A stretch of 64,000 nucleotides of DNA from contig OX359194.1 in NCBI GenBank assembly GCA_947172415.1, forward strand, positions 1,054,001 through 1,118,000, in the 5' to 3' direction. Made by a program: the position numbers and the translations under genes. A model generated the notes under the pieces. It ran no database searches. It was not told the origin of the DNA and saw only the letters and a program-made list of their open reading frames with translations. This document shows, piece after piece, positions 503 through 63,908 of the stretch (positions are counted from its first letter, which is position 1; each line of letters begins with the position of its first letter). This stretch comes from Chondrosia reniformis (lineage: Eukaryota > Porifera > Demospongiae > Chondrillida > Chondrillidae).

Positions 503-3500
503 GAGCAGTATGTCTTCATACATGATGCACTCAATGATTACGTGACTTGTGGAACTACTTGTGTAGCAGCTCATGAATTGAAGAGGTTGATTTCCAGACA
601 GGAAGAAGTAACTGAGGATGGAAGGAGAACTGGCTTTGACAAGCAGTTTGAAGTTAGTAGTGTTGAATTGAGTAGCATTCAACCTCTGCACATACACAGT
701 ACGTATATACATGTACACATTAAATGTAATCTAATATTTAGTTCATTATTTGTTTTCAACTGCATTGAGCACTCTATTGGTATTAGTAAATAAATGAAAG
801 TGTGAGATAATAGTATTGCTGTCATTGCAGTAGCTAGTGGATTTGTGAACATCAATCAATAGCACGTATTACATGCAACCAAGTATATAACAATGCAGCC
901 AATCACATTGCAGCAATCACATTGCAGCCAATCACATTGCAGCCAATCACATTGCAGCCAATCACATTGCAACCAATCACATTGCAGCCAATCACATTAC
1001 AGTAAACTTATGCTCATGTTATTAGGTGCTTCAGAGTATTTGTAAGACGACTTCTTCAGATGATAAGACTAACGCTAGAAAGTCAAGCGTATCAAAGAAG
1101 AACAGATATTCTGACAGATATCCTTGTGAGTCACTCACAGTAGGCCTAACATGCACATGGACTTACACTTTAGCAGTGTTTTCCTACGTGCAGTAATTTC
1201 ACTGTTAGCATTAACTTCATATCAGTTACATTTGTAGAACATTCCCTTTGAACCATGTATTGGACCATTGTGAGTGAAATGTGAAATTGATTTGTCTCAC
1301 ATACTATAGACTATACCAAGCATTTGATAGTTTCGGGAAAAACACGTGAAAGTGGACAAGGGTACATCAATGCTTCCCAAGTTCAGGTATTGCTTCATAT
1401 TTTCCTAATATCTCATACTTTTGTATATCTCTGCACATGATAATGACTTTTGGTTGCACAATCTGATTTAAAACTAAAGTTTCTTAAATTGTATAATTCC
1501 TTCTATTGCTTCCCATCAATCGACCTTCATATTCCTATATCATACAGTTCCTGTACATTTCCTTGTATTCACACTTAGAGCTACTCCAATCCTCGAGCTT
1601 TCATAGCCGCTCAAGCTCCATTGAAGAACACAAGAGAAGACTTTTGGGACGTTGTTTGGACCTTCAAACCTCCCACCATTGTACTGCTGTGTGACTTTGT
1701 TGAAGGCAGTCAGGTTGGTATTGTCTATGTATTCACGTTAAAATCCATACTTTTCAGAATTTACTTGGCAGGTATTCTAATCTTTATCAGAGCATAATTA
1801 TTAATCTTGCTTGAGGAATCTTTTGTTTTTGTTACCGGAGTCTGCAAGCAATTTTGTGTACAATCCTTTAGCTACATTGACAAGAATTTTACCATATGAA
1901 CGGTCACTTCTTTTGGACGACTGCTTGCTAAATGTGGTCACTTCAATCAAATGTCAAAAATTTACACTCTACATCATTCTACATTCTTTTAAATGATAAT
2001 CTAGTTACTACTCTAATGCAGTTAAATAAATTGTGTCCCATAGCTAACTGTATTATGTATGCAAGCTACACTGCCTTTGAATAACTACTACTATTTTCTC
2101 TCTATATAGAACACTTGTTCTCCATTTTTTCCAACGGAGGAGTATGAGACAGAGGTGTATGGCTCCATTAAGATAACCAAGAAATCAGCCAAGAGACTGG
2201 ATGGCTATATGAAGTTCACACTGGAACTCAGCAGCTCCAATAAAGTATGTTTAACATTGTTTATGATAGAGGAATTAGTGAGCTTCTGTAGCAATCAAGA
2301 TTATTTCAGAATAAGGATTTCTTCTAACTGCGTCAAACTTATCTTTGTAAAGGTTCATCTTTCGACTTTGGGAGCGTTTTTTTGTTTTGTTTTTTTTCGA
2401 GAAGAAACAGAAAAAAAACTGCATCTCTAGACGCTCCCAAAGTCGAAAGATGAACCTTTACAAAGATAAGATTATTTCAGGTCGTTTCGGTTTGCAGACC
2501 TTCAGCTGATAAAACACTGATAGATTACACCTCAAACCTTGATTGTTCACCCTGCTACAGAAAGCTCACTAATTCCTCTATCATAGTTACAACATAGCAG
2601 TGAATCTCTATTCTACAATGTTTATATGTACATACGTACGTACGTATACATACGTATATTACAATCTAGGGTTAAATAATTGGTGATGATGAAAATTACT
2701 CAGAGTCTTATTAAACTACTGCATTTCTGAATTTGATTCAACAGAATTGACATATGTATAAAGAAAAGGCATTTTTGTACATCAGACTCGTAGTAATATT
2801 CCATGACTGTCAAATATGTACATACGTATACTTAGCTCTGAGGTGCTAAAGGTACTAAGGTATTCCATTTTGTATTTTATTTGGTCACTTTATGTGTCAG
2901 ACGTAATATCTCTATATATGTATATCTCTAGCTATATGATTATTTCTATGACATACCCTATATGCATAATTCTATTCTATACACCTTCATGATGTAAGTT
3001 TTAAAACCACTGTCTTCAATCAGGATACAAATTCTACCATTATTTAGTCCATATACCATTTTTCCATATAATATTTACCTTCAATATACGTACATGAGTG
3101 TACAGAATGACCCATTGTGTAATGTGATGTCTTTATGTAGAGCGATTCCAAGTCTTTTGAAGTGACCCTTTTCCACACCGGAGAGTGGAAAGTTGATAAT
3201 CGACCTAAGTTATCTTCTCTGCTGAACATCATGGCAGAAGTGCAGATCATCCAGCAAGGACAAACTAAACGTTGCCTTGTAGCTTGCGAGTAAGCAATGA
3301 ATACTTTAAAGAGTGTTTATCATGTATACCATTTTTCTCTGTTGTTCTGCCAATTTAAGTATGCAAATGCTGTTTTTTATGTTTATCTATATACATATAT
3401 AGTGATGGTATGGGACGCACCGGTGTCTTTATAACTGTCATGTCTGAGATTGAGCGAATCAAGTTTGATGGAGAAATTGATATATTTCAGACTATCAAAG

Positions 3501-4061
3501 CTATCCGAGTTCAAAGACCAAATATGGTCTCTACTGGGGTGAGTGTATGTGTAAGGCTTCAAATTATGTTGTAAAATAATTGGACTATTTCCAATGTGTG
3601 TATATTATCAATATACATATAAACTGTATATGTAGAATAAAGAGAAGAAATATATATATTATCAATTACATTACGTACTTTTTGGGTCACTTGTCCAGAC
3701 CGGACAACTTAAAAGGTTATTGCCACATGCATGGTGACATCATTATAGTGGGAAAGTTTGTTCAAATGGTAGTCATGAGTTACCGATTTCTATTCAATCT
3801 GGACAACCGACCCAAAAAGTACTGTATACATTTCAGGTTAAATTATTAATAATATATACATATACATTTCAGGTTAGATTATTAATAATATATTAAATAC
3901 AATATTTATGTGTGAAATTGTTGTATACATATAATAATCTATCTGTATGATTAATATATTAAATGGATTTTTTTAATTAGGAGCAGTACAAGTTGTGTTT
4001 TGAGATTATCAAAGAATACTTACAGTCATTTGACAATTATGCAAACTTTAAGCCAGTTTGA
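503..4061 (+). CDS. Receptor protein tyrosine phosphatase gene A, 3' part (end of D1 and all of D2)
   Basis: These are the last eight exons of an RPTP whose 5' part lies left of the window. Exons: 503-652, 1026-1125, 1310-1386, 1579-1713, 2110-2244, 3141-3289, 3403-3538 and 3981-4061 (TGA stop). All joins are GT-AG and in frame, giving 320 codons. Exon 503-652 supplies the end of D1 (EQYVFIHDAL, the helix after the Q-loop). The rest is D2, with the NRY phosphotyrosine-loop motif, YINAS, EDFW and a CX5R loop reading ACDDGMGRTGVF. In place of the WPD loop it reads GEWKVDNRP, so D2 is probably inactive, as is common for second PTP domains of receptor PTPs. Exon sizes match genes B and C exactly. 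No stop or frameshift is seen, so this is the tail of a likely working gene rather than a pseudogene. Whether it has the same ectodomain cannot be seen. Confidence 0.9.
893..1012 (+). repeat. 15-bp tandem repeat, about 7 copies
   Basis: The unit is GCAGCCAATCACATT, repeated about seven times in gene A with small variants. The same place in genes B and C has four copies (about 26250-26313 and 50412-50475). The array ends roughly 15-30 bases before the acceptor of the first D2 exon, and every unit carries CCAAT. Confidence 0.85.
2264..2583. mobile_element. MITE with TA target duplication, containing a 40-bp foldback
   Basis: The terminal inverted repeats are TGATAGAGGAATTAGTGAGC on the left and its complement on the right, flanked by TA. 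Inside is a perfect 40-bp inverted repeat (2338-2377 with 2431-2470) around a T-rich/A-rich loop. The same insertion is at 27569-27885 in B and in a short form at 51780-51936 in C. It lies in the D2 intron after exon 2110-2244. The TA flank suggests a Tc1/mariner-type non-autonomous element. The element codes for nothing. Confidence 0.75.
3672..3824. mobile_element. Short MITE, AGTACTTTTTGGGTC termini
   Basis: This is an element of about 153 bp with inverted ends (GTACTTTTTGGGTC... and ...GACCCAAAAAGTAC), next to TA. Orthologous insertions lie in the penultimate intron of B (29208-29364) and C (53057-53214). A separate fourth copy is at 41804-41962. Confidence 0.7.
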
Positions 4062-5690: not shown

Positions 5691-5696
5691 TGTAGT

Positions 5697-10330: not shown

Positions 10331-13300
10331 CAACTTGCTTGTCATTATAGTAGATATGTCTGATCTACTTGCTTGTCATTATAGTAGATATGTCTGATCT
10401 ACTTGCTTGTCATTATAGTAGATATGACTGATCTACTTGCTTGTCATTATAGTAGATACGTCTGATCTACTTGCTTGTCATTATAGTAGATATGTCTGAT
10501 CTACTTGCTTGTCATTATAGTAGATATGTCTGATCTACTTGCTTGTCATTATAGTAGATATGACTGATCTACTTGCTTGTCATTATAGTAGATACGTCTG
10601 ATCTACTTGCTTGTCATTATAGTAGATATGTCTGATCTACTTGCTTGTCATTGTAGTAGATATGTCTGATCTACTTGCTTGTCATTATAGTAGATACGTC
10701 TGATCTACTTGCTTGTCATTATAGTAGATATGTCTGATCTACTTGCTTGTCATTGTAGTAGATATGTCTGATCTACTTGCTTGTCATTATAGTAGATATG
10801 TCTGTTCAACTTGCTTGTCATTATAGTAGATATGACTGATCTACTTGCTTGTCATTATAGTAGATATGTCTGATCTACTTGCTTGTCATTATAGTAGATA
10901 TGTCTGATCTACTTGCTTGTCATTATAGTAGATATGTCTGATCTACTTGCTTGTCATTATAGTAGATATGACTGATCTACTTGCTTGTCATTATAGTAGA
11001 TACGTCTGATCTACTTGCTTGTCATTATAGTAGATATGACTGATCTACTTGCTTGTCATTGTAGTAGATATGTCTGATCTACTTGCTTGTCATTATAGTA
11101 GATACGTCTGATCTACTTGCTTGTCATTATAGTAGATATGTCTGATCTACTTGCTTGTCATTGTAGTAGATATGTCTGATCTACTTGCTTGTCATTATAG
11201 TAGATATGTCTGTTCAACTTGCTTGTCATTATAGTAGATATGATTGATCTACTTGCTTGTCATTATAGTAGATATGTCTGCTCTACTTGCTTGTCATTAT
11301 AGTAGATATGTCTGATCTACTTGCTTGTCATTATAGTAGATATGTCTGCTCTACTTGTTTGTCATTATAGTAGATATGTCTGATCTACTTGCTTGTCATT
11401 ATAGTAGATACGTATGTCTGTTCAACTTGCTTGTCATTATAGTAGATATGTCTGCTCTACTTGCTTGTCATTATAGTAGATATGTCTGATCTACTTGCTT
11501 GTCATTATAGTAGATATGTCTGCTCTACTTGCTTGTCATTATAGTAGATATGTCTGATCTACTTGCTTGTCATTATAGTAGATACGTATGTCTGTTCAAC
11601 TTGCTTGTCATTATAGTAGATATGTCTGCTCTACTTGCTTGTCATTATAGTAGATATGTCTGATCTACTTGCTTGTCATTATAGTAGATATGTCTGATCT
11701 ACTTGCTTGTCATTATAGTAGATATGTCTGCTCTACTTGCTTGTCATTATAGTAGATATGTCTGATCTACTTGCTTGTCATTATAGTAGATATGTCTGTT
11801 CAACTTGCTTGTCATTATAGTAGATACGTATGTCTGTTCAACTTGCTTGTCATTATAGTAGATATGTCTGCTCTACTTGCTTGTCATTATAGTAGATATG
11901 TCTGATCTACTTGCTTGTCATTATAGTAGATATGTCTGATCTACTTGCTTGTCATTATAGTAGATATGTCTGATCTACTTGCTTGTCATTATAGTAGATA
12001 TGTCTGATCTACTTGCTTGTCATTATAGTAGATATGTCTGATCTACTTGCTTGTCATTATAGTAGATATGTCTGATCTACTTGCTTGTCATTATAGTAGA
12101 TATGTCTGCTCTACTTGCTTGTCATTATAGTAGATATGTCTGATCTACTTGCTTGTCATTATAGTAGATACGTATGTCTGTTCAACTTGCTTGTCATTAT
12201 AATAGATATGTCTGCTCTACTTGCTTGTCATTATAGTAGATATGTCTGATCTACTTGCTTGTCATTATAGTAGATATGACTGATCTACTTGCTTGACATT
12301 ATATTAGATATGTCTGCTCTACTTGCTTGTCATTATAGTAGATATGTCTGATCTACTTGCTTGTCATTATAGTAGATATGTCTGATCTACTTGCTTGTCA
12401 TTATAGTAGATATGTCTGATCTACTTGCTTGTCATTATAGTAGATATGTCTGCTCTACTTGCTTGTCATTATAGTAGATATGTCTGATCTACTTGCTTGT
12501 CATTATAGTAGATATGTCTGCTCTACTTGCTTGTCATTATAGTAGATATGACTGATCTACTTGCTTGTCATTATAGTAGATATGACTGATCTACTTGCTT
12601 GTCATTATAGTAGATATGACTGATCTACTTGCTTGTCATTATAGTAGATACGTCTGATCTACTTGCTTGTCATTATAGTAGATATGTCTGATCTACTTGC
12701 TTGTCATTATAGTAGATATGTCTGATCTACTTGCTTGTCATTATAGTAGATATGACTGATCTACTTGCTTGTCATTATAGTAGATACGTCTGATCTACTT
12801 GCTTGTCATTATAGTAGATATGTCTGATCTACTTGCTTGTCATTGTAGTAGATATGTCTGATCTACTTGCTTGTCATTATAGTAGATATGTCTGATCTAC
12901 TTGCTTGTCATTATAGTAGATACGTATGTCTGTTCAACTTGCTTGTCATTATAGTAGATATGTCTGCTCTACTTGCTTGTCATTATAGTAGATATGTCTG
13001 ATCTACTTGCTTGTCATTATAGTAGATATGTCTGATCTACTTGCTTGTCATTATAGTAGATATGTCTGCTCTACTTGCTTGTCATTATAGTAGATATGTC
13101 TGATCTACTTGCTTGTCATTATAGTAGATATGTCTGATCTACTTGCTTGTCATTATAGTAGATATGTCTGATCTACTTGCTTGTCATTATAGTAGATATG
13201 TCTGATCTACTTGCTTGTCATTATAGTAGATATGTCTGATCTACTTGCTTGTCATTGTAGTAGATATGTCTGATCTACTTGCTTGTCATTATAGTAGATA

Positions 13301-13690
13301 TGACTGATCTACTTGCTTGTCATTATAGTAGATATGACTGATCTACTTGCTTGTCATTATAGTAGATATGACTGATCTACTTGCTTGTCATTATAGTAGA
13401 TACGTCTGATCTACTTGCTTGTCATTATAGTAGATATGTCTGATCTACTTGCTTGTCATTGTAGTAGATATGTCTGATCTACTTGCTTGTCATTATAGTA
13501 GATATGTCTGATCTACTTGCTTGTCATTATAGTAGATATGACTGATCTACTTGCTTGTCATTATAGTAGATACGTCTGATCTACTTGCTTGTCATTATAG
13601 TAGATATGTCTGATCTACTTGCTTGTCATTGTAGTAGATATGTCTGATCTACTTGCTTGTCATTATAGTAGATATGTCTGATCTACTTGC
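10331..13690 (+). repeat. 34-bp minisatellite, about 98 copies, 75 bp before the B start codon
   Basis: The unit contains GATCTACTTGCTTGTCATTA then TAGTAGATATGTCT. Each unit holds a 7-bp inverted repeat, ATCTACT ... AGTAGAT, with a 13-base loop. Variants (ATGACT, TACGTCT, TTCAAC, and a TACGTATG form with four extra bases) recur in blocks, suggesting higher-order duplication. Only about five units lie before gene C (38887-39055) and two before gene D (60255-60328), so the array expanded specifically here. Confidence 0.95.
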
Positions 13691-13765: not shown

Positions 13766-13838
13766 ATGAAAATGAAGCATACTCCTTTAACCCCTCTCCG
13801 TTTGATGGTACTGCTCTCTCTACTCCCAGCACTAACAG
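13766..13838 (+). other. Gene B exon 1: signal peptide
   Basis: It encodes MKMKHTPLTPLRLMVLLSLL then PALTG: a basic N-terminus, hydrophobic core and small residues before the likely cleavage site. It ends in phase 1 at ACTAACAG before GTAAAA. The sequence is nearly identical in C and D. Confidence 0.85.
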
Positions 13839-16800
13839 GTAAAAGGTTTATTTAAAGATTAAAGATTAGCAATGAATATATGTACAAGCAATGTCAATTA
13901 ATTAGTAATCTCTTTGGTTTTGGTAACAACATTATTATAATGATATCCTGAAAATCTACTATATCGCACACGTACATTTCTTTTTGAATATAGTTTGTCA
14001 GACTGTAACAGTAGGTGGACCAAATGACACATCAACTGAAAGATCTATTACACCCACCCTTGATAGCAAAGTACAGCTGTTTTGTTCACGGCCAAGCTGG
14101 GCTAAGGATTGGTATACAACAGGTTCTAGCGTTGCAGCAAAAGATGGAGAAATAAGTACAATGTCAGGACTTAATAGAAAATTGGAATTTGTTAACTTTA
14201 AGACATCACAAGTTGGAACATATAGTTGTATACTTGAGCCAGAAAAAGATCGTAAAAACACAACACGTTTCCAAACCTTTACAGTAACTCTAGGTTAGTG
14301 CTAGGCACAATTTCACACAAATGTAACAGTTCAGAGTAAAATGATTTCTGTGAAAATTGATTCCAGATATTTTAATTATGGCATTTGGTAGAGAATGATT
14401 GCCAAAGTTAGATCTCAATTTCTGTCTCATAGATTTTGTCCAAATTGTCATTGAAGTTAGAAATAGCTTAATAAAGCCCCTGGGGTTCACAAACAATCAA
14501 CAAGGACATAGTTTTATACCAATTGAGGAAGATCGCAGCATCCTGGATATTGATTGCTCAAAGATTATTTGTGAACCCCAGGGACTATCACTCGTAACTC
14601 TTATCTTCAGATACTCATACACAGCAATAAACCTTTATCAAGCTATTTCAAACTTTAATAAATGTTTTAAAAAATCTCTGAAACAAGTTAAATAACTACT
14701 TCCTTCGGTTAGAAATAACTTGTTGCAGTATATTAAGCAAAATAATTGTCTTATCTTATATTTCTACCCTCAACTGTTATAAATAGTATGTATACGTATA
14801 TGGAGTGTACGTATAGAAAAAGGCTATTTTCACTATATTTGACTGTAGCTATAGTTAGATAGATGATAGAAATTTCTTTTAATTGCACCAGATCTTTTAT
14901 TGAGAAGGTTCATCTTTAGTTTTTTCAGCTTCCCCACGGTCAAACTTCCAAATTCCCAAAAATCAAACAGCATCTTTAGTCTTTTGAGCCCGGGTTTATT
15001 TTTCATTATCTGAGATTTGCACACATACACACATTGTTCTTGTTTTGCATTCTCTTGTATATATATAAATATACCCCGTTGCCGGGGTAACCGCCTGTGT
15101 ATATATTTCGTAACCGGGGTATAACAGGATTTAAGAAGCTATATACTGCCATCGGCTTCTTAAATCCTGTTATATCCCTGCCCAAATATGGTAAACTAAG
15201 ACGTTTCTACTTGGAGGGTGGACAATTCTCCTTTCATTTAGGACAGTGGGAGTAGTCAGGGCAAGAGCATTCTATAAAGTCGTCAGCGTTTAAGCCAAAC
15301 TAACCAGATGCCAGATGAGCCATCCTGAAAGTCCCGCCAAAATAACAATAAGAAGCGAAGGAGTATATATCACTTATACCACGGCATCACTTCTATGTTT
15401 GGGCGCATCGATCCCTACTTCTAGTATATCCATGATGCGCCCAAACATAGAAGTGATGTGTATAGTTAAGTTTCAGTATGCTACTTCTGCAATGTTAGCC
15501 TTACCATATGATCACTTTCTTGTTTCGTTACTTTTTCTAGATGTGCCAATCACTGTTATAGTGCCATCCCTACTTTTAACTTCATTTTTGAATGTTTTTA
15601 TTTAACTTATATATATATATATTGTTGTGCATAAATACACTATACATATATATACGTATGGTGATATAACATTGTTGCTGTTTTACGTACCTTCTTACCA
15701 TCTTCTCCTATCCAAGTGAATATACGAAATACTGTAAAAGTTGGTATGAACAGCGAAACAATCCTTACTATAAGACCGGATGAAAGTGAACCTGTAAAGC
15801 TGGAGTGTGAGCGGACAAGCAAAAATAGGAACTGGTACAGTGATGGAATTATAGTTACTCCAACTAGTGGACAACTTAACACTACAGATATGACAGGAGT
15901 TGCAACATTGTCCATCTCCACATTGAATGCAAATAACACTGGAAATTATACTTGTAAAGTAACTGATGGTAATACAACAGAGTACACAATAGTATTAGGT
16001 AAGCATAATTGACACAGAAGTAATATATGGTTCATCCTTCAGACATACAAATGCAAGGTAATGGATGTCCACACTGGTATCCTTAATGTGTAGTAGGTTG
16101 TCTTATTTCTACACTTTACAGCTATAAATCATCATTACATCCTTTTTGGTCAGCCACATTTTTACCTTCCATCTCTATATCATGCACTTACCTGACTAGT
16201 CTCTCTGGTCCCTGTATTTAACTTGATTTCTTTTCAATGTTCCCTTTATAGGCGTATCTCCTACTCAAGTTATAACAACTAGTGAACCATTTAATCCAAC
16301 CATTCCGATCATAGTTGTACTACTGATAATAGTCATCATAGTATTGATAGTGATTGTAATACTTGGAATCGTTCTTTATTTAAAGTGAGTTTTATATGTA
16401 TACTACTGTAATATAATTCATATATAAGAATTATTATATACTACTATAATATTTAAATTCATATGCTACTGTTATAAAATTTGTATAGAAATTTATGGAA
16501 ACTTTTGTGATATTTAAAGCTGATACATAGTAAATACATTAGCCTTGTTATCTTTGCTGCTGTTTCTCTCCTTTTAAAGGCGAAATGACAGATTGCCAAG
16601 ATTCAATAGATCTCAATCAACCAAGAAATCTCTCATTAAGTCAAATGCAGTACAATCAAGCCCTAGTATGTCAATATGGTAGAGGTGTAAGTGACTATGA
16701 AATGAGCTATTAAAACCATTCCTGTAAACATTATAGGTCCAGAAGTTGTGCCATATGCTCAAACCACAGGCACAGAAGTGACCTCATCAAAGAGGGGAAA

Positions 16801-17881
16801 AGGTAAACAAACTGTTTATTGAGTAAATATTTGGTATTTGTTTATTGTTACAGCGACCTACATACTTTAAAGTGAAACTATTTAATTTTCTCACTTCCAT
16901 CTTTATCACCATAACAACAGTTGATGCTCATATGTATGATGAAGTTAGAGACAAAGAAAATGGTATGTTTACAGTAGATTTGAACATATCATTTTTTGTG
17001 GTGTTATGTGTATAAGAGGTTACGGCTACAATATACTTATGAAATGGTTTAATTAAATAAAAGGATTGTTACATTGTTGATTGATAGGGTTATCCTCTTT
17101 CCTATTGAGGTGGATGTACTTTATTTGTTATACTATCCATTCTATACATACTCTAAGTGTATGCATGATTGATGTGCATTTATGTATATATGTACTTAGC
17201 TGTATATTTGTATTTTCACACCTCCATCCATCTATTTCACCATAGCAACAGCTGATATTGGTATGTATGATGAGATTGGGGACAAAGGAAATGGTATGTT
17301 TACAGTAAATCGTATCAATATTAATGTAAACACATCAGTATATGTATATACGTGTATATGTAGGTGTATTTAGTATGATAAGATTGAGTGTATGGTAAAT
17401 GTACATGTATGCATGTGCATACGTATGTACCTTATAATATGTACATGGATGTACATAACTATTGGTACTCATTTGAATGTAACTTGTATGTGTATTAATG
17501 ACTGTATGTTCTCCTCAGGTGCTAGCAAGGCAGCACCTCCTCTGGTGGCTGTAGAGTTTCATGCAGAGAAGAAAGAGGAAGTTACAATACACGAGTACAG
17601 TATGATAGACAAAAGTAAAAAAAGTAAGACTTTAATAATTTATAGTATAGCAGTTACATTTCAGGGGTGATCACACTAGAGAAGTGGTCATGTTAGAGAG
17701 GTGGTCACAATAGAGAGGTGGTCACACTAGAGAGAACTTACCAAATGTCTCCCTTGACTATATTTTTAGCTAGTAAAGGTGCTAATGGAGCAATTGCAAC
17801 AGAACAGTTTCTTCAGCATATTAAGAAACTTAGTGAAAAGAATTTTTCAGGTTTTCATAAAGAATTTGAGGTAAACACTAT

Positions 17882-17915
<34 letters not shown>

Positions 17916-23900: not shown

Positions 23901-24625
23901 ATACCACATCACCGATTTTCCAGTAATTTGCAGTAGTACTGTATCCTTTCATTTAACAGTGATTTCCTTCGGATGCCGTGATGATATGGTACTGTTTTCG
24001 TAGTAGTACTATTATTTATTATTATTTATATGCTATGCACTGTTATAGTAGTAATACTATTTATTTTTAATCCAGTCTTATGGTGTTGACTATCCAAAGA
24101 TCTACGTATGCTAAGTGCTCTTGTTTAGGTGTTATAGGTAATTGTAACAATTTCCCTTCCATTTACTACATATATAGACTGTTTGGGGGAGTTCTTAAAG
24201 GGTTGAAATGTACAATTTTCTACATCTCAACTTTGTACTTTTGTTTACTTATTATATATCTCTGAATATAGACTACTGATGGAGTTTCAAAGAGCCACAA
24301 TCTTCAACACTTCCTGTATACCGGATGGCCAGACCATGGTGTCCCTCAGCATCCATATTCTCTGGTAAAGCTGAGTCAGCAAGTGAGGAAAAAGTACAAA
24401 AAGAATAGTGCACCAATGGTGGTACATTGCAGGTAAGTCTGTTCAATTGATTGCATACAGTATTCCATATTATACATATGTATATAATCATAATTTATTT
24501 ACGTATATCTACATACATCTCCCAATCATGTACTGTTGATATCTGGCGGATTAAGAGCAAAAGATATGCTTTTTAAACATTTAATAATCTTCAGAATCAG
24601 CATTTTAGTGCTTACTGCACAGATT

Positions 24626-24659
<34 letters not shown>

Positions 24660-39055: not shown

Positions 39056-39141
39056 GTCTGAGCTACAGTTTAATGATTCAAAATACCTCTGTTTGTTAGA
39101 TATAATTGGCTTCATAATTGAAGGTCTGTTGTGTAAAGGAA

Positions 39142-39214
39142 ATGAAAATGAAGCATACTCCTTCAACCCCTCTCCATTTGATGATACTGCTCTCTCTGCT
39201 TCCAGCACTAACAG
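39142..39214 (+). other. Gene C exon 1: signal peptide
   Basis: Encodes MKMKHTPSTPLHLMILLSLL then PALTG. Phase 1 donor GTAATT. Confidence 0.85.
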
Positions 39215-48200: not shown

Positions 48201-51200
48201 ATTTATTATTGTTTATATACTGTTGTAGTAGTACTATTATTTATTATTATTTATATGCTATGCACTGTTATAGTAGTAATACTATTTATTTTTAATCCAG
48301 TCTTATGGTGTTGACTATCCAAAGATCTACGTATGCTAAGTGCTCTTGTTTAGGTGTTATAGGTAATCGTAACAATTTCCCTTCCATTTACTACATATAT
48401 AGACTGTTGGGGGAGTTCTTAATGAAATGTACAATTTTCTACATCTCAACTTTGTACTTTTGTTTACTTATTATATATCTCTGAATATAGACTACTGATG
48501 GAGTTTCAAAGAGCCACAATCTTCATCACTTCCTGTATACCGGATGGCCAGACCATGGTGTCCCTCAGCATCCATATTCTCTGGTAAAGCTGAGTCAGCA
48601 AGTGAGGAAAAAGTACAAAAAGAATAGTGCACCAATGGTGGTACATTGCAGGTAAGTCTGTTCAATTGATTGCATACAGTATTCCATATTATACATATGT
48701 ATATAATCATAATTTATTTACGTATATCTACATACATCTCCCAATCATGTACTGTTGATATCTGGTGGATTAAGAGCAAAAGAAATGCTTTTTAAACATT
48801 TAATAATCTTCAGAATCAGCATTTTAGTGCTTACTGCACAGATTTCTCTCTCTCTCTCACACACACACATACACACACACACACACACACTTTGACAGTA
48901 TTATTTACAGACAAGGAGCTTATATATTTTAGATTTTAAATGGTTGAGTTAACTATTTTTTGTTTTTTTTTCCTTCAGTGCTGGAGTAGGTCGTACTGGT
49001 ACATTCATCACTATTGATGCCATGATACAGAGGTTGAAGGAGAGAGATGATCTCAACATTTATGAGTTTGTTACTGAAATGAGATCAAAGAGGACCTTCA
49101 TGGTTCAGACCAAGGTTTGAATTTGTGCATTCAAATCAGATTGTATCTTCAAATGGAAAATTATACCTGACACTTATCTCCATGCACAAACTAATCTTAA
49201 GTATCAGTATATATATACAGTGTATTCATGCAGTACTGGACACTGGACAGGGATTTCACTTATCCATTTCAAATTCTGTATGTACGTACATATATACGTA
49301 TGTATTACAGTGGACGTGCATTCAAAATCTCTGCTTTTAGTATTGACTGAGCACATTAGAAACTACATATACGTACGTACCTTTCATAGAGGTTGTATGT
49401 ACAAATTGTTGTAACACCTGTTTTTAGGAAGTTTCAAATTTGCTAGTTTTGAGTTTGTACATACAGTCGACTCCACATACAACAAACTCGGATAATGCAA
49501 ATTTGCGCATATAGCGAACATGCCTTGGAAACCACGTTTCATTGCGTACATTTTTCATCGCTTATAACACACGCACTTCCGTTACTACGAATGGGAGAGA
49601 CATGGCCATACCTACGGTATGCACGGAAAATATGTTTCCACTTCGAAGCGAACTTCGCAAAACAATTTCACTCGAACTTCGATCCGACTTCACTCGAAAT
49701 TCAGTCCAACTTTGCTCGAACTTTGGTCCAACTTCCCTCGCCAAATAGCAGATTTTGTTCATTAATGTTTTATGTACTCAATACGTCGTTCGTTGGCTTG
49801 TGAACGGTGATGTGTATGACTATGCGTTTCTATGTACTGTACCATGTATTTATACATGCTTTGGTTACAAAGAACTTCTTTTATAAAGAACAAATCTTCT
49901 TGGATTTAGCAGTTTGTTATATCAGGAGTCGACTGTATGTATATGTACTTGTATCAAAGCCCCAGTATTGAATATATCATCATTTATGTTTATTATATGT
50001 GTATGTTTGTGTATTCTCTTTGTAGGAGCAGTACATCTTCATACATGATGCACTCAATGATTACGTGACTTGTGGAACTACTTGTGTAGCAGCTCATGAA
50101 TTGAAGAGGTTGATTTCCAGACAGGAAGAAGTAACTGAGGACGGAAGGAGAACCGGTTTTGACAAGCAGTTTGAAGTTAGTAGTGTTGAATTGAGTAGCA
50201 TTCAACAGCTGCACATACACAGTACGTATGTAAATGTACACATTAAATATAATCTAATATTTAGTTTATTATTTGTTTTCAACTGCATTGAGCACTCTTT
50301 TGGTATTAGTAAATAAATAAGAGTGTGAGATGATGTCATTGCGTTAGCTAGTGGATTTGTGAACATCAATTAATAGCATGTATTACATTACATGCAACCA
50401 AGTATATAATAATGCAGCCAATCACATTGCAGCCAATCACATTGCAACCAATCACATTGCAGCCAATCATATTACAGTAAACTTAATGCTCATGTTATTA
50501 GGTGCTTCAGAGTATTTGTAAGACAACTTCTTCAGATGATAAGACTAACGCTAGAAAGTCAAGCGTATCAAAGAAGAACAGATATTCTGACAGATATCCT
50601 TGTGAGTCACTCACAGTAGACCTAACATGCACATGGACTTACACTTTAGCAGTGTTTTCCTGTGTGCAGTAGTTTCACTGTTAGCATTAACTTCATATCA
50701 GTTACATTTGTAGAACATTCCCTTTGAACCGTGTATTGGTCCATTGTGAGTGAAATGTGAAATTGATTTGTCTCACATACTATAGACTATACCAAGCATT
50801 TGATAGTTTCGGGAAAAACACGTGAAAGTGGACAAGGGTACATCAATGCTTCTCAAGTCCAGGTATTGCTTCATATTTTCCTAATATCTCATACTTTTGC
50901 ATATCACTGCACATGCTAATGACTTTTGGTTGCACAATCTGATTTAAAACTAAAGTTTCTTAAATTGTATAATTCCTTCTATTACTTCCCATCAATCGAC
51001 CTTCATATTCCTTTATCATACAGTTACTGTACGTTCCCTTGTATTTACACTTAGAGCTACTCCAATCCTCGAGCTTTCATAGCTGCTCAAGCTCCATTGA
51101 AAAACACAAGAGAAGACTTTTGGGACGTTGTTTGGACCTTCAAACCTCCCACTATCGTACTGCTGTGTGACTTTGTTGAAGACCGTCAGGTTGGTATTGT

Positions 51201-53407
51201 CTATGTATTCACATTAAAACCCATACTTTTCAGAATTTACTTGGCAGGTATTCTAATCAATTATCAGAGCATTATTATTAATCTTGCTTGAGGAATCTTG
51301 TCTTTTTATTTTGTTACCGGAATCTGCAAGCAATTTTGTGTACAACTACTTCCTTTAGCTACATTGACAAGAATTTTACTATTCCCTTCATGTGCATTAC
51401 AGTGGAACCGTATGAACGGTCACCTCTTTTGGACGACTACTTGCTAAATGTGGTCACTTCAATCGAATGTCAAAAATTTACACTCTACATCATTCTACAT
51501 TCTTTTAAATGATAACCTGATTACTACTCTAATGCAGTTAAATAAATTGTGTCCCATAGCTAACCGTATTATGTATGCAAGCTACACTGCCTTTGAATAA
51601 TTTCTACTATTTTCTCTCTATATAGAACACTTGTTCTCCATTTTTTCCAACTGAGGAATATGAAACAGAGGTGTATGGCTCCATTAAGATAACCAAGAAA
51701 TCAGCCAAGAGACTGGATGGCTATATGAAGTTCACACTGGAACTCAGCAGCTCCAATAAAGTATGTTTAACATTGTTTATGATAGAGGAATTAGTGAGCT
51801 TCTGTAGCAGGGTGAAACAATCAAGATTATTTCAAGTAGTTAAGTCTGCAGACCTTCAACTGATAAAACACTGATAAGTTACACCTCAAACCTGATTGTT
51901 CACCCTGCTACAGAAAGCTCACTAATTCCTCTATCATAGTTACAACAAATCAATGAATTTCTATTCTACATTGTTTATATGTACATACCTACGTATACAT
52001 ACATATACATGTGTATATTACAATCTAGGGTTAAATAATTAGTGATGATGAAAATTACTCAGAGTCTTATTAAACTACTGCATTTCTGAATTTGATTCAA
52101 CAGAATTGCCATATGTATAAAGAAAAGGCATTTTTGTACATCAGACTCGTAGTAATATTCCATGACTGTCAAATATGTACATACGTACATATATCCATAC
52201 ATACTTAGCCCTGAGGTGCTAATGGTACGTATTCCATTTTATATTTTGTTTAGTCACTTTATGTGTCAGGCGAAATATCTCTATATAGATTTATATGATT
52301 ATTTCTATGACATACCCTATATAAGACTCTGAGTAATTTTCATTATTTAATTCTATTCTATACACCTTCATGATGTAAGTTTAAAAACCACTGTCTTCAA
52401 TCAGGATACATTAATTCTACCGTTATTTAGTCCATGTACTATTTTCCCATATAATGTATACCTTCAATATACGTACATGAGTGTACAGAATGACCCATTG
52501 TGTAATGTGATGTCTTTATGTAGAGCGATTCCAAGCCCTTTGAAGTGACCCTTTTCCACACTGGAGAGTGGAAAGTTGATAATAGACCAAAGTTATCTTC
52601 CCTGCTGAACATCATGGCAGAAGTGCAGATCATCCAGCAAGGACAAACTAAACGTTGCCTTGTAGCTTGCGAGTAAGCAATGAATACTTTAAAGAGTGTG
52701 TACATGTATACCATTTTTCTGCCAATTTAAGTATGCAAATGCTGTTTTTTATGTTTATCTATATACGTATTTATAGTGATGGTATGGGACGCACTGGTGT
52801 CTTTATAACTGTCATGTCTGAGATTGAGCGAATCAAGTTTGATGGAGAAATTGATATATTTCAGACTATTAAAGCTATCAGAGTTCAAAGACCAAATATG
52901 GTCTCAACTGGGGTGAGTGTATGTGTAAGGCTTTAAATTATGATGTAAAATAATTAGACTATTTCCAATGTGTGTATATTATCAATATACATATAAACTG
53001 TATATGTAGAATAAAGAGAAGAAATATATACCTATATAATATTATCAATTACATTACAGTACGTACTTTTTGGGTCGGTTGTCCAGACCAGACAACTTAA
53101 AAGGTTATTGCCACATGCATGGTGACATCATTATAGTGGGAAAGTTTGTTCAAATGGTAGTCACGAGTTACCGATTGCAATGTTCAATCTGGACAACCGA
53201 CCCAAAAAGTACTGTATACATTTCGGGTTAATATATTAATAAATACAATATTTATGTGTGAAATTGTCATATACATGAAGATAATCTATCTGTATGATTA
53301 ATATATTAAATGGATTTTTTAATTAGGAGCAGTACAAGTTGTGTTTTGAGATTATCAAAGAATACTTACAGTCATTTGACAATTATGCAAACTTTAAGCC
53401 AGTTTGA
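39142..53407 (+). CDS. Receptor-type protein tyrosine phosphatase with three Ig domains (gene C, complete)
   Basis: 26 exons and 1073 residues, all GT-AG and in frame. Same plan as gene B plus one more Ig exon: signal peptide (1-24), Ig1, Ig2, Ig3 (about 221-316), a longer stalk, transmembrane helix (about 340-366), tail, D1 and D2. The catalytic D1 residues are Asp675 (WPD), Cys707 and Arg713. D2 has Cys1001/Arg1007 but no WPD. The D1 and D2 exons have the same lengths as in B and differ by only a few residues (for example LHHF for LQHF, FVEDRQ for FVEGSQ), whereas Ig1, Ig2 and the stalk differ widely. The start at 39142 opens the signal peptide, with a second ATG at 39148. Expected role: plasma-membrane phosphotyrosine phosphatase receptor with an unknown ligand. 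Confidence 0.9.
39383..39685 (+). other. Gene C exon 2: Ig-like domain 1
   Basis: Phase 1-1 exon of 303 bases, one codon longer than in B. QLFC, DWY and GTYSC are kept. The region after YSC reads ILEPEGYRRNTTTLYETF against ILEPEKDRKNTTRFQTF in B. Confidence 0.88.
39686..40527 (+). other. Gene C intron 2
   Basis: Begins like B intron 2, including the TTTGTGAACCCCAGGG foldback (left arm near 39869, right arm near 39963), then diverges. A further foldback around 40323-40413 pairs GTCTTT/AAAGAC-type arms. No exon is recognised. Confidence 0.5.
40528..40812 (+). other. Gene C exon 3: Ig-like domain 2
   Basis: Phase 1-1, KLEC...NWY...GNYTC. It differs from B Ig2 mainly at the N-terminal strand (VGEDINKSVVTLTPDIN), in the loop before and after NWY, and after YTC. 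Confidence 0.88.
40991..41278 (+). other. Gene C exon 4: extra Ig-like domain 3
   Basis: Phase 1-1 exon of 288 bases found only in gene C within this window. It opens VNTRNTVRVGMN like an Ig2 exon, then KLEC, SWY and GSYTC, and ends with donor GTAAGA. It arose by duplication of an Ig2-type exon and has since diverged. Skipping it would keep the frame. Confidence 0.85.
41804..41962. mobile_element. Short MITE, independent insertion in gene C
   Basis: Same family as 3672-3824 (ends CAATACTTTTTGG and CCAAAAAGGACTG), flanked by TA, in the intron before the transmembrane exon. It is absent from that intron in B and D. Confidence 0.75.
42031..43416 (+). other. Gene C exons 5-10: stalk, transmembrane helix, juxtamembrane tail
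   Basis: Exons 42031-42181, 42376-42461, 42533-42598, 42717-42758, 43045-43086 and 43312-43416. The stalk (HTSKSVVPTTNQGTTTGQPF) is six residues longer and unlike the B and D stalk, while the helix from about LIVVV onwards and the tail are nearly identical, including the duplicated MYDEV/MYDEI exons. Confidence 0.85.
43466..44047 (+). repeat. 17-bp minisatellite, about 34 copies
   Basis: Units of GAGGTGGTCACACTAGA with ATGTT, CAATA and ATTAG variants arranged in blocks, in the intron before D1. It is expanded about eightfold over gene B. Confidence 0.93.
45256..45393. mobile_element. Short AGGGCTG-family repeat, left copy in C (5' end lost)
   Basis: Matches 18944-19086 from ATGCAGAACTTCAGGCC onwards, ending ATGCAGCCCT. 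Confidence 0.65.
46106..46490 (+). repeat. 28-bp minisatellite, about 14 copies
   Basis: Short version of 19814-22297, at the same place in the D1 intron. Minus-strand frames of 130-164 codons through it are artefacts. Confidence 0.95.
46765..46927. mobile_element. Short AGGGCTG-family repeat, right inverted copy in C
   Basis: Counterpart of 22576-22740, inverted relative to 45256-45393. Confidence 0.65.
48845..48892 (+). repeat. (TC)n(AC)n microsatellite
   Basis: TC run passing into an AC run, longer than at 24628. Confidence 0.9.
49464..49935. mobile_element. Tigger-like MITE, gene C copy
   Basis: Orthologue of 25246-25748 with CAGTCGACTCC ends and TA flanks. It is shorter by about 30 bases because one internal TTCGATCCGACTTCACTC unit is missing. 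Confidence 0.75.
50412..50475 (+). repeat. 15-bp tandem repeat, 4 copies
   Basis: GCAGCCAATCACATT array ahead of the first D2 exon of gene C. Confidence 0.85.
51780..51936. mobile_element. MITE, gene C copy without the inner foldback
   Basis: 157 bp, TGATAGAGGAATTAGTGAGC termini and TA flanks. It lacks the roughly 160-base inner hairpin present in A and B. Confidence 0.75.
53057..53214. mobile_element. Short MITE, gene C copy (orthologue of 3672-3824)
   Basis: CAGTACGTACTTTTTGGGTC and GACCCAAAAAGTACTG ends with TA flanks. This is the best-preserved copy. Confidence 0.75.
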
Positions 53408-57525: not shown

Positions 57526-57546
57526 TTTAAGTACGTAACATGATGT

Positions 57547-60254: not shown

Positions 60255-60328
60255 CAACTTGCTTGTCATTATAAATATGTCTGATCTACTTGCTTGTCAT
60301 TATAGTAGATATGTCTGATCTACTTGCA
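60255..60328 (+). repeat. 34-bp minisatellite, 2 copies
   Basis: Two units of the CTTGCTTGTCATTATAGTAG repeat, 67 bases before the gene D start codon. Confidence 0.85.
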
Positions 60329-60394
60329 GTTAAAGAATTCGAAATACCTTTGTTTGCTAGATATACGTAATTGAAGGTCTATTGTGTAAAGGAA

Positions 60395-63300
60395 ATGAAA
60401 ATGAAGCATACTCCTTCAACCCCTCTCCGTTTGATGGCACTGCTCTCTCTACTCCCAACACTAACAGGTAGAACACTGTAATGATTAAAAATGTACATAT
60501 ATATATTGTAAACAATGTGTTGCAATACATTGTTATTAATTACTTAATCTTTGATTATATTCCGATTGTCTAATACATTACTATATTATGCATGTTTAAG
60601 TAAGTAAATGTTTCTTGCTGTTCTTTGCATCATGTAAGCATCTAATATTTTTATTGCATGTCTATATACCACCTTTATCTCACATTCTCTATTATAGTTT
60701 GTCAGAATATAACAGTAGACAACAATGGTAAAACTGATGTATCCATCACACCCACCTATGGTGGATTGGTCCAGTTATTCTGTGGGTGGTCTAAGCACAG
60801 AGGAAAGGCATGGTATACAACAAATAGTGCTACGATTAAGAACACACCTGGAGTGATATTTACAGATTCAGGACAAACTAGAACATTGGCTTTCCTTAAC
60901 TTTAATGCATCATATGCAGGAACATATAGTTGTGTGCTTTCAGCAATGGCACATCCATATGAAGAACCTGTAACTTACATGGTTACTTTAGGTTAGTGTA
61001 ACATATGTAAATATAGAATACTAGCAGATATATAACTAGCAGGTAGGCCTTTGTGGGCGTACCTGCTACAGCACATCATGTGCCAGTGACTCCCACGCCA
61101 GTAATTTTCTTGCCTCCGAAAGACCTTGGGAGCGATAATTAAAATATGGCAGTAGAATAAGAAAGCCAAAAGAACAGTAGGACAGGCATCTTTGACCAGC
61201 AGGGTACACTTTCTGGGCAGTTCTCCATAAACTAGCAGTGTTTTGTGCTGTAGTTTAGGAGGAGTTGACGATCGAACAAATAAACACAATTGAATTATAT
61301 ATATAGATAATGTATACATGTACATGGAGGTAGACTATGGAGATATGTTATAGAGGAGGAGAGAAGGTCATATACTATACATGCTATTTTCATTCTAATC
61401 GACTTTGGCTTTAACACATGTATAATATGGTTACAACTATTGTTACTACGCAACTACTATAACACTTAATTTATATGTCAATATATATAATAATGTAATA
61501 TGTGATACCTTTGTTTCGTTTGTGTGTACTTAGTGTATATTTGTAAACAATAAGCTAATTGCATTATCACTTTAGTTGAGTGGAGAAATGAATAGGTCGT
61601 TGATGTGCATTACATTCAATAGTTTGCCATCAGTTACTAAGCTACTATATATGTGTGGGTAGCCCTGTACATGCCACATGAATATGAATAGCTAGCTACA
61701 TGTGTAGGCTGTATACATCAGTGTTCTTGATGTGGTAACTGTTAGTGTTATTTAACATACATGCATACATACGTATATATAAATACACTATATATATAGT
61801 ATATACAAGATGATATATGTTGATATATGTATGTATGTATATTCACTTTCTTGGTTGTGGCTTTAACACATGTACTGTATAATTTGGTTGTTGTGTGTTA
61901 TGACTGTCAGCTGAGATTTACACTTTATAGCAGTAACATTGTTGCTGTTTTACATTCCCTTGTATGTATATTACCTTTTTACCATCTTCTCCTATTCAAG
62001 TGAATACACGAAATACTGTAAAAGTTGGTATGAACAGCAAAACAATCCTTACTGTAAGACCGGATGAAAGCGAACCTGTAAAGCTGGAGTGTGAGCGGAC
62101 AAGCAAGGATAGGAACTGGTACAGTGGTGGAAGTACAGTTACTCCAACTAGTGGACAACTTAACACTACAGATTTGACAGGAGTTGCAACATTGTCCATC
62201 TCCACATTGAATGCAAATAACACTGGATATTATACTTGTAAAGTAACTGATGGTGGTACAACAGAGTACACAATAGTATTAGGTAAGCATAATTGATAGG
62301 AGTAATATATGGTTCATTCTTCAGACATACAAATGCAAGGTAATGGATGTCCACACTGGTATCCTTAATGTGTAGTAGGTTGTCTTATTTCTACACTTTA
62401 CAGCTATAAATCATCATTACATCCTTTTTGGTCAACCACATTTTTACCTTCCATCTCTATATCATGCACTTACCTGACTATTCTCTCTGGTCCCTGTATT
62501 TAATTTGATTTCTTTTCAATGTTCCCTTTATAGGCGTATCTCCTACTCAAGTTATAACAACTAGTGAACCATTTAATCCAACCATTCCGATCATAGTTGT
62601 ATTACTGATAATAGTCATCATAGTATTGATAGTGATTGTAATACTTGGAATCGTTCTTTATTTAAAGTGAGTTTTATATGCATACTATTGTAATATAATT
62701 CATATATAAGAATTATTATATACTACTATAATATTTAAATTCATATGCTACTGTAATAAAATTTGTATAGAAATTTATGGAAACTTTGTGATATTTAAAG
62801 CTGATACGTAGTAAATACATTAGCCTTGTTATCTTTGCTGCTGTTTCTCTCCTTTTAAAGGCGAAATGACAGATTGCCAAGATTCAATAGATCTCGATCA
62901 ACCAAGAAATCTCTCATTAAGTCAAATGCAGTACAATCAAGCCCTAGTATGTCTATATGGTAGAGGTGTGAGTGACTATGAAATGAGCTATTAAAACCAT
63001 TCCTGTAAACATTATAGGTCCAGAAGTTGTGCCATATGCTCAAACCACAGGCACAGAAGTGACCTCATCAAAGAGGGGAAAAGGTAAACAAACTGTTTAT
63101 TGAATAAATATTTGGCATTTGTTTATTGTTACAACGACTTACATACTTTAAAGTGAAACTATTTAATTTTCTCACTTCCATCTTTATCACCATAACAACA
63201 GCTGATGTTCATATGTATGATGAAGTTAGAGACAAAGAAAATGGTATGTTTACAGTATATTTGAACATATCATTTTTTGTGGTGTAATGTGTATAAGAGG

Positions 63301-63908
63301 TTACGGCTACAATATACTTATGAAATGGTTTAATTAAATAAAAGGATTGTGACATTGTTGATTGATAGGGTTATCCTCTTTCCTATTGAGGTGGATGTAC
63401 TTTATTTGTTATACTATCCATTCTATACATACTCTAAGTGTATGCATGATTGATTTACATTTATGTATATATGTACTTAGCTGTATATTTGTATTTTCAC
63501 ACCTCCATCCATGTATATCACCATAGCAACAGCTGATATTGGTATGTATGATGAGATTGGGGACAAAGGAAATGGTATGTTTACAGTAAATCGTATCAAT
63601 ATTAACGTAAACACATCAGTATATGTATATACGTGTATATGTAGGTGTATTTAGTATGATAAGATTGAGTGTATGGTAAATGTACGTACATGTATGCATG
63701 TGCATACGTATGTACCTTATAATATGTACATGGATGTACATAACTATTGGTACTCATTTGAATGTAACTTGTATGTGTATTAATGACTGTATGTTCTCCT
63801 CAGGAGCTAGCAAGGCCGCACCTCCTCCAATGGCTGTAGAGTTTCATGCAGAGAAGAAAGAGGAAGTTACAATACACGAGTACCGTATGATAGACAAAAG
63901 TAAAAAAA
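60395..63908 (+). CDS. Receptor-type protein tyrosine phosphatase gene D, 5' part
   Basis: First nine exons of a fourth family member; the PTP domains lie beyond the window. Exons: 60395-60467 (signal peptide, MKMKHTPSTPLRLMALLSLL), 60698-60991 (Ig1), 62001-62282 (Ig2), 62534-62666 (stalk and transmembrane helix), 62861-62946, 63018-63083, 63202-63243, 63533-63574 and 63804-63908 (tail). Phases and sizes match gene B except Ig1, which is 294 bases. Ig1 keeps QLFC, AWY and GTYSC, but the rest is largely different from B and C. Ig2, stalk and transmembrane segment are almost those of gene B. The tail has MYDEV, MYDEI and a Y-R-M-I variant of the YSMI motif. No stop or frameshift is visible. Confidence 0.88.
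60698..60991 (+). other. Gene D exon 2: highly divergent Ig-like domain 1
   Basis: Phase 1-1. It starts VCQNITV like the other Ig1 exons and keeps SITPT, VQLFC, WYTT and GTYSC, but differs at well over half of the remaining positions from B and C. The flanking introns on both sides are also unrelated to those of B and C over much of their length, as if the whole segment had been replaced. Confidence 0.85.
60992..62000 (+). other. Gene D intron 2, nothing recognised
   Basis: This intron is not alignable by eye with intron 2 of B or C until about 61900, where CTGTCAGCTGAGATTT resumes homology with C. AT-rich with TATA/TACGTA simple sequence. No exon is recognised. Confidence 0.5.

Follow-up and report, generated by a model that had tools for sequence, protein, structure and literature searches.

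The window analysed here, a 64,000-nucleotide stretch of chromosome 6 (C6) of Chondrosia reniformis, lies in a cluster of genes for receptor tyrosine phosphatases (RPTPs) with Ig ectodomains; positions are those of the window unless prefixed C6 or C9. As the first-pass annotation had reported, four copies (genes A to D) are arranged head to tail at a spacing of about 21-25 kb; all are on the plus strand, and the starts of their signal-peptide exons are separated by 24.2, 25.4 and 21.3 kb. Its copy number of four is an undercount for the cluster, however, as counting members beyond the window gave at least 31 copies of the D1 catalytic exon over 0.64 Mb (C6:614,656-1,253,838), these being exon matches rather than gene models, of which at least one belongs to a degenerate copy. 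Among the 87 D1 catalytic-exon matches listed, 37 had at least 70% identity, all on C6, and 31 of these 37 fall inside this interval. All sequence comparisons are between paralogues within one genome (one haplotype of one specimen).

Each of the four genes is modelled as a single open frame (1074, 966, 1070 and 964 aa for A, B, C and D) with all introns GT-AG, and they share a layout of signal peptide, two or three single-exon Ig domains, transmembrane (TM) segment, a tail carrying YDEV and YDEI, an intact phosphatase (PTP) domain D1 and a degenerate D2. B and C lie entirely within the window; of A it holds just the D2 half, and of D just the front. Gene A begins upstream, at C6:1043540, and its 3' part (1..4061) runs from exon D2a (503-652) to the C-terminal exon with the stop codon (3981-4061). 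Gene B (13766..29558; 25 exons, one terminal stop) opens with a signal-peptide exon (13766..13838), followed by Ig1 (13994..14293) and Ig2 (15717..15998), both of phase 1-1, and an exon for stalk and TM (16252..16384); the hydrophobic N-terminus and TM stretch were judged by eye. The juxtamembrane exons JM1, JM2, Y1, Y2 and JM3 (16580..17623) include Y1 with MYDEV (16921-16962), Y2 with MYDEI (17252-17293) and JM3 with HEYSMI (17519-17623). PTP D1 occupies eight exons (17770..24893) and carries KNRY, WPD and HCSAGVGRTG; in D2, which with the C-terminus spans 25864..29558, the WPD is lost (HTGEWKVD) and the P-loop reads ACDDGMGRTG. Gene C (39142..53407, 26 exons) has three Ig exons (39383-39685, 40528-40812 and 40991-41278), a form it has in common with A, and a stalk and TM exon at 42031-42181. 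The front part of gene D (60395..64000) comprises the signal peptide, Ig1 (60698-60991), Ig2 (62001-62282), TM (62534-62666) and juxtamembrane exons to 63908, and the gene runs on to C6:1130830. A 34-bp minisatellite of about 98 copies (10333..13690) lies directly upstream of the B signal-peptide exon, and short versions of it precede C (38889-39056) and D (60257-60327). The array preceding A forms one edge of the duplication of block P, an orphan block at C6:1034043-1036848.

The genes have the single TM and cytoplasmic PTP domains of RPTPs, with Pfam Y_phosphatase matching two stretches (E 1e-135) and the TM exon hydrophobic by eye. KNRY, WPD and HCx5R, the catalytic motifs of D1, are present in all of A-D, and WPDHGVP and AGVGRTG were found in 12 of 12 D1f and D1g exons in C6:860-1148 kb; on these motifs D1 is a putative catalytic domain, and D2 is degenerate. 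The D2 of A-D, with ACDDGMGRTG and without WPD, departs from the intact HCSAGVGRTG of the LAR (R2A) type, as does an ectodomain that lacks the LAR arrangement of three N-terminal Ig domains followed by fn3 repeats. No fn3 match was obtained in gene B, and the Ig2-TM intron, of 253 bp in B and 251 bp in D, leaves no room for an fn3 exon. The single long-enough open stretch in the corresponding intron of C (130 aa) gave no fn3 match, and that of A has no open stretch above 83 aa. Ig2 of B exceeds the Pfam cut-offs for I-set and Ig_3, whereas V-set reaches 16.8 bits at the same domain against a cut-off of 26. Taken alone, Ig1 of B, C and D reached no Pfam cut-off (B matched Ig_3 below threshold only), and AlphaFold predicts an Ig fold for B Ig1 (13996-14292) with a mean pLDDT of 91.6. 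An ITAM has the form Yxx(L/I) x6-12 Yxx(L/I); the tail, YDEV-x10-YDEI, fits in spacing but its first motif ends in V. A crude scan of seven other copies and of copy E for exons of the YDE(V/I) type gave one in E, and matches in two others looked spurious.

The first-pass annotation held that the inside of these receptors is conserved and the outside diversifying, and proposed dN/dS per domain as the check. Between A-D, pairwise dN/dS is 0.03-0.07 in D2 and 0.10-0.37 in D1, against 0.72-3.66 in all 12 values for Ig1 and Ig2, so the Ig exons are not well below 1, and many of their values are close to it. Replacement and silent counts differ between Ig and PTP in six of six pairs (Fisher p 6.4e-8 to 2.2e-4, with D Ig1 left out), although the six tests are not independent as the pairs share genes. 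Rapid change is not limited to the Ig domains, since dN/dS of the stalk and TM reaches 1.79. The Ig exons are indeed more divergent than the cytoplasmic part, but unevenly so: Ig1 of A, B and C are 13.5-21.2 replacement changes apart over 99 codons, whereas the Ig2 pair B/D is separated by just 11 in 94 codons. The near-identity claimed for PTP domains, tails and introns holds for the cytoplasmic protein and partly for the introns: K is 0.025-0.067 in the cytoplasmic introns (those above 1.7 kb excluded, and two poorly aligned 3'-end introns of D excluded from D pairs), and in D the introns flanking Ig1 and those near the 3' end align badly with the other copies.

Site models (M1a against M2a), run with our own code and with p values taken test by test, indicated positive selection in three of five Ig data sets and in none of four PTP controls. 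One significant set comes from genes A-C with P (Ig1; 2dL 11.7); the other two consist of older-clade neighbouring Ig exons at C6:862-1016 kb, which are not joined to gene models and some of which may belong to other receptors (Ig1, nine sequences, 2dL 45.1, or 42.5 for gap-free columns; Ig2, five sequences, 2dL 14.7). In these sets change is focused at 10-24% of sites with dN/dS of 5-7. The models assume a single tree, an assumption that gene conversion violates; in what are rough checks of the tree effect, the Ig1 signal of A, B, C and P holds under all three topologies, and that of the older Ig1 with a star tree, three random trees and both exon halves. Excluded from the older Ig1 set were one copy (C6:877006) and four fragments (897124, 897275, 1027947 and 1028131), and from the older Ig2 set 1029416. 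Ig2 of A, B, C, D and P was not significant (p 0.07; 2dL 0.33 without C), and neither was the set combining Ig2 and Ig3 (p 0.26). The older-copy D1 control has three sequences (g987 and g1007, with a stop in automatically extended exons, excluded), as has the D2 control (two copies not recovered with all six exons excluded); the D2 controls were run without exon D2e, and copies g952 and g965 lie outside the controls. Though the PTP controls were negative by M1a/M2a, D1 of A-D gave p 0.03 by M8a/M8. A positively selected ectodomain on a conserved signalling part, the pattern of a diversifying receptor, is thus found in three of five Ig sets, one of them from modelled genes.

Placed on an AlphaFold Ig model, the selected sites of older-clade Ig1 and Ig2 cluster around C, C', F and FG. 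A region picked after the sites were seen (the BC loop, C, C', C'-D loop, F and FG; 39 of 99 residues) takes in 15 of the 23 sites of older Ig1 (p 0.004) and 7 of the 8 of older Ig2 (p 0.006); the two sets have six sites in common, of 20 and 8 (p 0.001). In Ig1 of A, B, C and P, the C-C'-F-FG region holds only half of the sites (5 of 10, p 0.35), and overlap with either older-clade set is no greater than chance would give (p 0.14 and 0.48). Of six comparisons between columns that vary in the A-D clade and the older-clade sites, one gave a low value (Ig2 of A, B, C, D and P, p 0.046).

The history of A-D is mosaic, the ectodomain, middle and 3' end each having different nearest relatives. The intron before TM is 96.8% identical between B and D. 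In the intron D1e-D1f, B, C and D are 0.6-1.1% apart from one another but 6% from A, and the middle of these three genes is much younger than their ectodomains. Ig1 of D is a separate lineage, with dS of 0.56-0.63 (0.02-0.07 in D1). It lies in a segment (60474..61798) for which blastn over 288 kb returned, besides this exon (67-68% DNA identity), only short matches at 61447-61492. A recent duplication followed by mainly ectodomain change, as first put forward, is therefore too simple a history, as the ectodomain segments themselves differ in origin; the accompanying proposal of recognition receptors under diversifying selection gains from the dN/dS contrast and the three site-model sets.

We consider it probable that the family is a diversifying repertoire of cell-surface recognition receptors built on Ig-type RPTPs, and we read its diversification as point selection combined with segment exchange. 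On the outside, the Ig domains contain positively selected sites, which in the two clearest sets gather on C, C', F and FG, and entire front segments, introns included, have histories unlike the rest of the gene. On the inside, the tyrosine tail, intact D1 and degenerate D2 are kept constant by purifying selection, and homogenisation between copies, by gene conversion or unequal crossing over, may have produced the young middle of B, C and D. The Ig face of each receptor would bind a ligand, and binding would alter the activity or position of D1, which could set the phosphorylation of nearby proteins, possibly including its own YDEV/YDEI motifs. With less confidence, the ligands may be markers that label other sponge cells as self or non-self, or they may be microbial surfaces.

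Although sponges have been known to show allorecognition for decades, no receptor for it is known to be accepted. For invertebrates in general, a passage of one review (PMC12065747) terms the mechanisms of allorecognition a complete mystery. That the cluster serves to tell a sponge's own tissue from foreign sponge tissue when the two touch is a possible reading, though not a favoured one. The deep Ig1 lineage of D on a young backbone, the tandem arrangement and the segments of different history are consistent with it, as is the use in Botryllus, according to the same passages, of clustered Ig receptors with Yxx(I/L/V) motifs, but pathogen receptors would show the same pattern. We give equal and similarly tentative weight to innate receptors for microbes or symbionts, diversified in an arms race with bacteria. 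Positive selection in the Ig sets suits this too, as do an Ig exon of the same type adjoining two SRCR domains at C9:4.33 Mb and the expansion of SRCR genes that the title of another paper (PMC10855680) gives for a sponge; the nearest solved folds, on the other hand, are mostly adhesion molecules and muscle proteins, which indicates fold only.

An adhesion or identity code among the cells of one animal, with copies diverging and isoforms kept apart as in Dscam or the clustered protocadherins, seems rather unlikely. The Ig fold is near those of NCAM2, Dscam, sDscam and LAR-type Ig1-2, but such a code would need differences between copies and not continuing exchange of segments. Relaxed constraint, under which only the phosphatase matters and the Ig exons drift, is improbable: many pairwise Ig values near 1 and two of five Ig sets without significant selection would fit it, yet change in the other three is focused, none of 60 null simulations reached the observed value for either Ig1 of A, B, C and P or older-clade Ig1, P20, L28, C30, W39, C78 and L99 are invariant across 32 Ig exons, and A-D are all open genes. 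Pseudogenes were likewise judged unlikely. Haplotypes misplaced in tandem are very improbable, as nothing specific points to them beyond an alternate haplotype and four haplotypic duplications removed in curation (from part of PMC12181767), and the copies have intron K of the size given above with conflicting relationships along the gene, differ in Ig number and sit among many more copies.

The preferred reading, a recognition repertoire built on RPTPs, would show that a phosphatase can serve as the base for a diversified receptor family. For sponge allorecognition this tandem family is a concrete and testable candidate, whose Ig domains are positively selected and whose enzymatic output is part of the receptor. 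We regard as doubtful the further idea that the cluster is the sponge histocompatibility complex, its variable Ig receptors being phosphatases themselves, so that self contact would set tyrosine phosphorylation directly, without SHP-type recruitment through ITIMs. No expanded or diversifying Ig-RPTP family in sponges was found in the open-access literature, a scope outside which lie preprints and most subscription journals. For this specimen, RNA reads (run ERR10177766) and a second, alternate haplotype assembly (GCA_947172445.1) are publicly available, as stated in part of PMC12181767, which brings key tests within reach. The same Ig on tyrosine kinases, as in paired receptors, was also considered: by eye, among 134 of 1104 kinase candidates and Ig lists of 150 matches, two kinases lay within 20 kb of an Ig exon, one at C9:4.813 Mb and one at C6:1.299 Mb, and at neither was a kinase seen 3' of the Ig on the same strand.

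Like Hydractinia Alr and Botryllus fuhc/FcoR, the sponge cluster consists of Ig receptors with diverse ectodomains, no homology being implied. FcoR tails are described with ITIM, hemITAM or core Yxx(I/L/V) motifs, and Hydractinia candidates with ITAM/ITIM motifs (passages of PMC12065747). Such motifs recruit other enzymes, whereas the sponge receptor contains the enzyme. Aggregation factors are extracellular proteoglycan-like proteins and differ in not being Ig receptors with a phosphatase. As candidate sponge allorecognition genes, they are named in the same review extract (PMC12065747, citing Grice et al. 2017). CD45 and RPTP-alpha/epsilon are, like A-D, RPTPs with a catalytic D1 and are also among the PDB matches of gene B. 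They control Src-family kinases and, to our knowledge, have no Ig ectodomain and form no tandem family. CD45-like phosphatases are among the signalling proteins expressed in Botryllus allorecognition tissue (part of PMC12065747). LAR-type RPTPs (PTPRF, PTPRS, PTPRD; DLAR) share N-terminal Ig domains, TM and tandem PTP domains with the sponge genes, and the tandem PTP domains of PTPRF and PTPRS are the best PDB sequence matches of gene B. In animals generally they are few conserved genes, unlike this large diversifying cluster, and A-D differ further in their two or three Ig domains only, their degenerate D2 and in that no fn3 was found in them. An older neighbour does carry an fn3 exon among its Ig exons (C6:996310; 37.8 bits, cut-off 25), and a second candidate at C6:917096 is slightly below the cut-off.

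The phosphatase domains of the four head-to-tail receptor tyrosine phosphatase genes A to D are constrained, sites in Ig exons of their cluster are positively selected, and segments of the genes have different histories. The Chondrosia reniformis genome is given as 117.37 Mb in 14 chromosomes plus a mitochondrial sequence, with a chromosome 6 of 8.73 Mb, in the genome description (PMC12181767). The sequence analysed had 117,379,552 bases in 15 contigs, with chromosome 6 (C6) at 8,731,016 bases. Exons were resolved via splice phase in a 288-kb region (C6:860001-1148000) made up of the window and flanking DNA. On the plus strand, 26 exons were predicted for A (C6:1043540-1058061), 25 for B (window positions 13766-29558), 26 for C (39142-53407) and 25 for D (C6:1114395-1130830). 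Each of these models from genomic sequence has one open reading frame, a single terminal stop and GT-AG at all introns.

The predicted N-to-C order is signal peptide, Ig exons, stalk and transmembrane (TM) segment, basic juxtamembrane (JM) stretch, tyrosine exons, and the first and second PTP domains (D1 and D2). B and D have two Ig exons, and A and C have three, all phase 1-1; no fn3 exon was found in A-D. Two short exons after the basic stretch carry MYDEV and MYDEI, and the exon preceding D1 holds HEYSMI (HEYSTI in A, HEYRMI in D). Pfam matched Y_phosphatase twice and I-set/Ig_3 above cut-off at Ig2, and the top PDB sequence matches were LAR-type phosphatases. Ig1 of B, C and D taken alone fell below every Pfam cut-off, and its Ig identity is supported by a structure model and by alignment with Ig2. 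D1 contains KNRY, WPD and HCSAGVGRTG. As the D2 P-loop reads ACDDGMGRTG and WPD is gone, D2 is probably a pseudophosphatase, given the catalytic roles of these motifs.

Pairwise dN/dS among A-D (Nei-Gojobori, exact exon boundaries) was 0.03-0.07 for D2, 0.10-0.37 for D1, 0.28-0.57 for the juxtamembrane region, 0.51 for Ig3 (A-C pair), 0-1.79 for stalk and TM, 0.82-1.79 for Ig2 and 0.72-3.66 for Ig1, on a neutral scale from cytoplasmic introns of 0.025 (B-C) up to 0.067 (A-D). The D2 protein is nearly unchanged despite a dS of 0.05-0.16, and the degenerate D2 is therefore the domain under strongest constraint. Replacement changes were in excess in Ig relative to PTP exons in six of six non-independent pairs (Fisher p 6.4e-8 to 2.2e-4); Ig1 of D was too diverged for this comparison and was excluded.

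Site models (M0, M1a, M2a, M7, M8, M8a) were fitted with a purpose-written codon-model program. Three of five Ig data sets were significant, with p values uncorrected for multiple tests: Ig1 of A, B, C and P, the orphan ectodomain-only copy upstream of A (2dL 11.7, p 0.003; dN/dS 7.4 at 14% of sites), and Ig1 (n=9; 2dL 45.1, p 1.7e-10) and Ig2 (n=5; 2dL 14.7, p 6e-4) of an older clade. The older-clade exons come from C6:862-1016 kb of this cluster; they were used as single exons outside any gene model, and each was assumed to be part of a phosphatase gene. Ig2 of A, B, C, D and P (2dL 5.2, p 0.07; no signal at 2dL 0.33 minus C) and an Ig2 plus Ig3 set (n=9; 2dL 2.7, p 0.26) were not significant. 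None of four PTP controls was significant by M1a/M2a; M8a/M8 gave p 0.03 for D1 of A-D. No null simulation reached the observed value for either Ig1 set (0/60 each), and with gapped columns removed 2dL was 11.7 (A, B, C and P) and 42.5 (older clade). The result was robust to tree changes (three topologies; a star and three random trees) and to exon halving.

AlphaFold modelled the Ig1 exon of B, run with 32 aligned Ig exons, as an Ig domain (mean pLDDT 91.6; residues 81-90 least certain, mean 69). The closest solved folds are I-set-like domains of NCAM2, titin, Dscam1, sDscam, LAR-type phosphatases and others, a likeness of fold alone that says nothing on function. The sheet of strands C, C', F and G is the binding surface in many Ig receptors. 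Within a region picked after the sites were known (BC loop, strand C, C', C'-D loop, strand F and FG loop; 39 of 99 residues) lay 15 of the 23 older Ig1 sites (p 0.004; posterior >0.5 in all three sets), seven of eight older Ig2 sites (p 0.006) and five of ten in Ig1 of A, B, C and P (p 0.35, not significant). Strand C sites alternate (residues 36 and 38); the older Ig1 sites outside the region comprise four in the A-A' stretch and singles in strands B and D and at D-E and E-F. Overlap between older Ig1 and older Ig2 sites was above chance (p 0.001), and that of the A, B, C and P sites with either was not.

Nearest relatives differ along the genes. 5' of the TM exon the two-Ig genes B and D group together (intron 96.8% identical), and the three-Ig genes A and C more loosely (introns differing by 9-10%). 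Between TM and roughly D2c, B, C and D are close to one another for the most part (0.6-1.1% difference in intron D1e-D1f; exceptions are the short introns JM1-JM2, D1a-D1b and D1x-D1d), with A about 5-6% distant. The 3' ends of A, B and C are similar and that of D is distant, with a difference of 41-42% in the intron between D2g and the C-terminal exon. Therefore, either front ends were exchanged, or they were preserved as separate lineages during homogenisation of the core. The introns of the D segment that holds Ig1 (60474-61798) have hardly any counterpart elsewhere in the 288 kb; the Ig1 exon's best non-self genome match among those listed was 57% (C6:2,082,578). Block P (C6:1034043-1036848) repeats, at 96.6% identity, the stretch of A that holds the minisatellite, signal peptide, Ig1, Ig2 and Ig3. 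No TM or PTP exons were found between it and A's first exon, save a broken minus-strand D2g piece, and P may represent a soluble form, or else serve A as an alternative front. A 34-bp minisatellite directly precedes the signal-peptide exon in all four genes and forms one edge of the P duplication; our guess is that it promotes exchange.

The D1 catalytic exon of B matched at least 87 places in the genome (best 150 of 164 candidates scored). Among the matches listed, at least 37 were 70% or more identical. All of these are on C6, at least 31 of them within C6:614,656-1,253,838, 14 on the minus strand on the left and 17 on the plus strand on the right. WPDHGVP is present in all 12 D1f exons of the 288-kb region. 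A copy at about C6:952-956 kb appears degenerate, with a stop in D2e, another near 965 kb is a fragment, and an fn3 exon lies among the older Ig exons (C6:996310).

The Ig face of each receptor may bind a varying ligand, and binding would alter the activity or location of D1. Substrates of D1 may include the receptor's own YDEV/YDEI pair, which has ITAM-like spacing, but V ends the first motif. The findings agree as well with allorecognition as with microbe recognition, and a cell-identity code is a further possibility. Ig-bearing RPTPs and diversified Ig receptor clusters are already known; none of the papers listed in searches of an open-access library described a large, diversifying family of Ig-RPTPs.

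Same-type Ig exons also cluster at C12:5.19-5.38 Mb, C6:0.34-0.47 Mb, C9:4.26-4.33 Mb and C1:6.4-6.55 Mb, with no D1 exons there among the matches listed; at C9:4.33 Mb they adjoin SRCR domains. Other receptor bodies appear to carry this Ig type as well. A second PTP cluster (C13:1.65-1.96 Mb) has at least 17 exon matches, 42-50% identical to D1g, and no Ig exons among the matches listed in two genome-wide Ig searches.

Between B and C, a 2.9-kb (approximate) insertion lacking from the corresponding spacer after A holds a 663-aa pogo/Tigger-like transposase ORF (32057-34048, plus strand; Pfam DDE_1, HTH_psq, PHD). A near-identical 98-aa plus-strand ORF occurs in spacers A-B (6542-6838, no Pfam match) and B-C (34924-35220). 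The D1d-D1e intron carries 89 copies of a 28-bp minisatellite in B (19816-22302) versus 14 in C (46107-46493), and the JM3-D1a intron of C has a 17-bp array of 34 copies (43473-44046).
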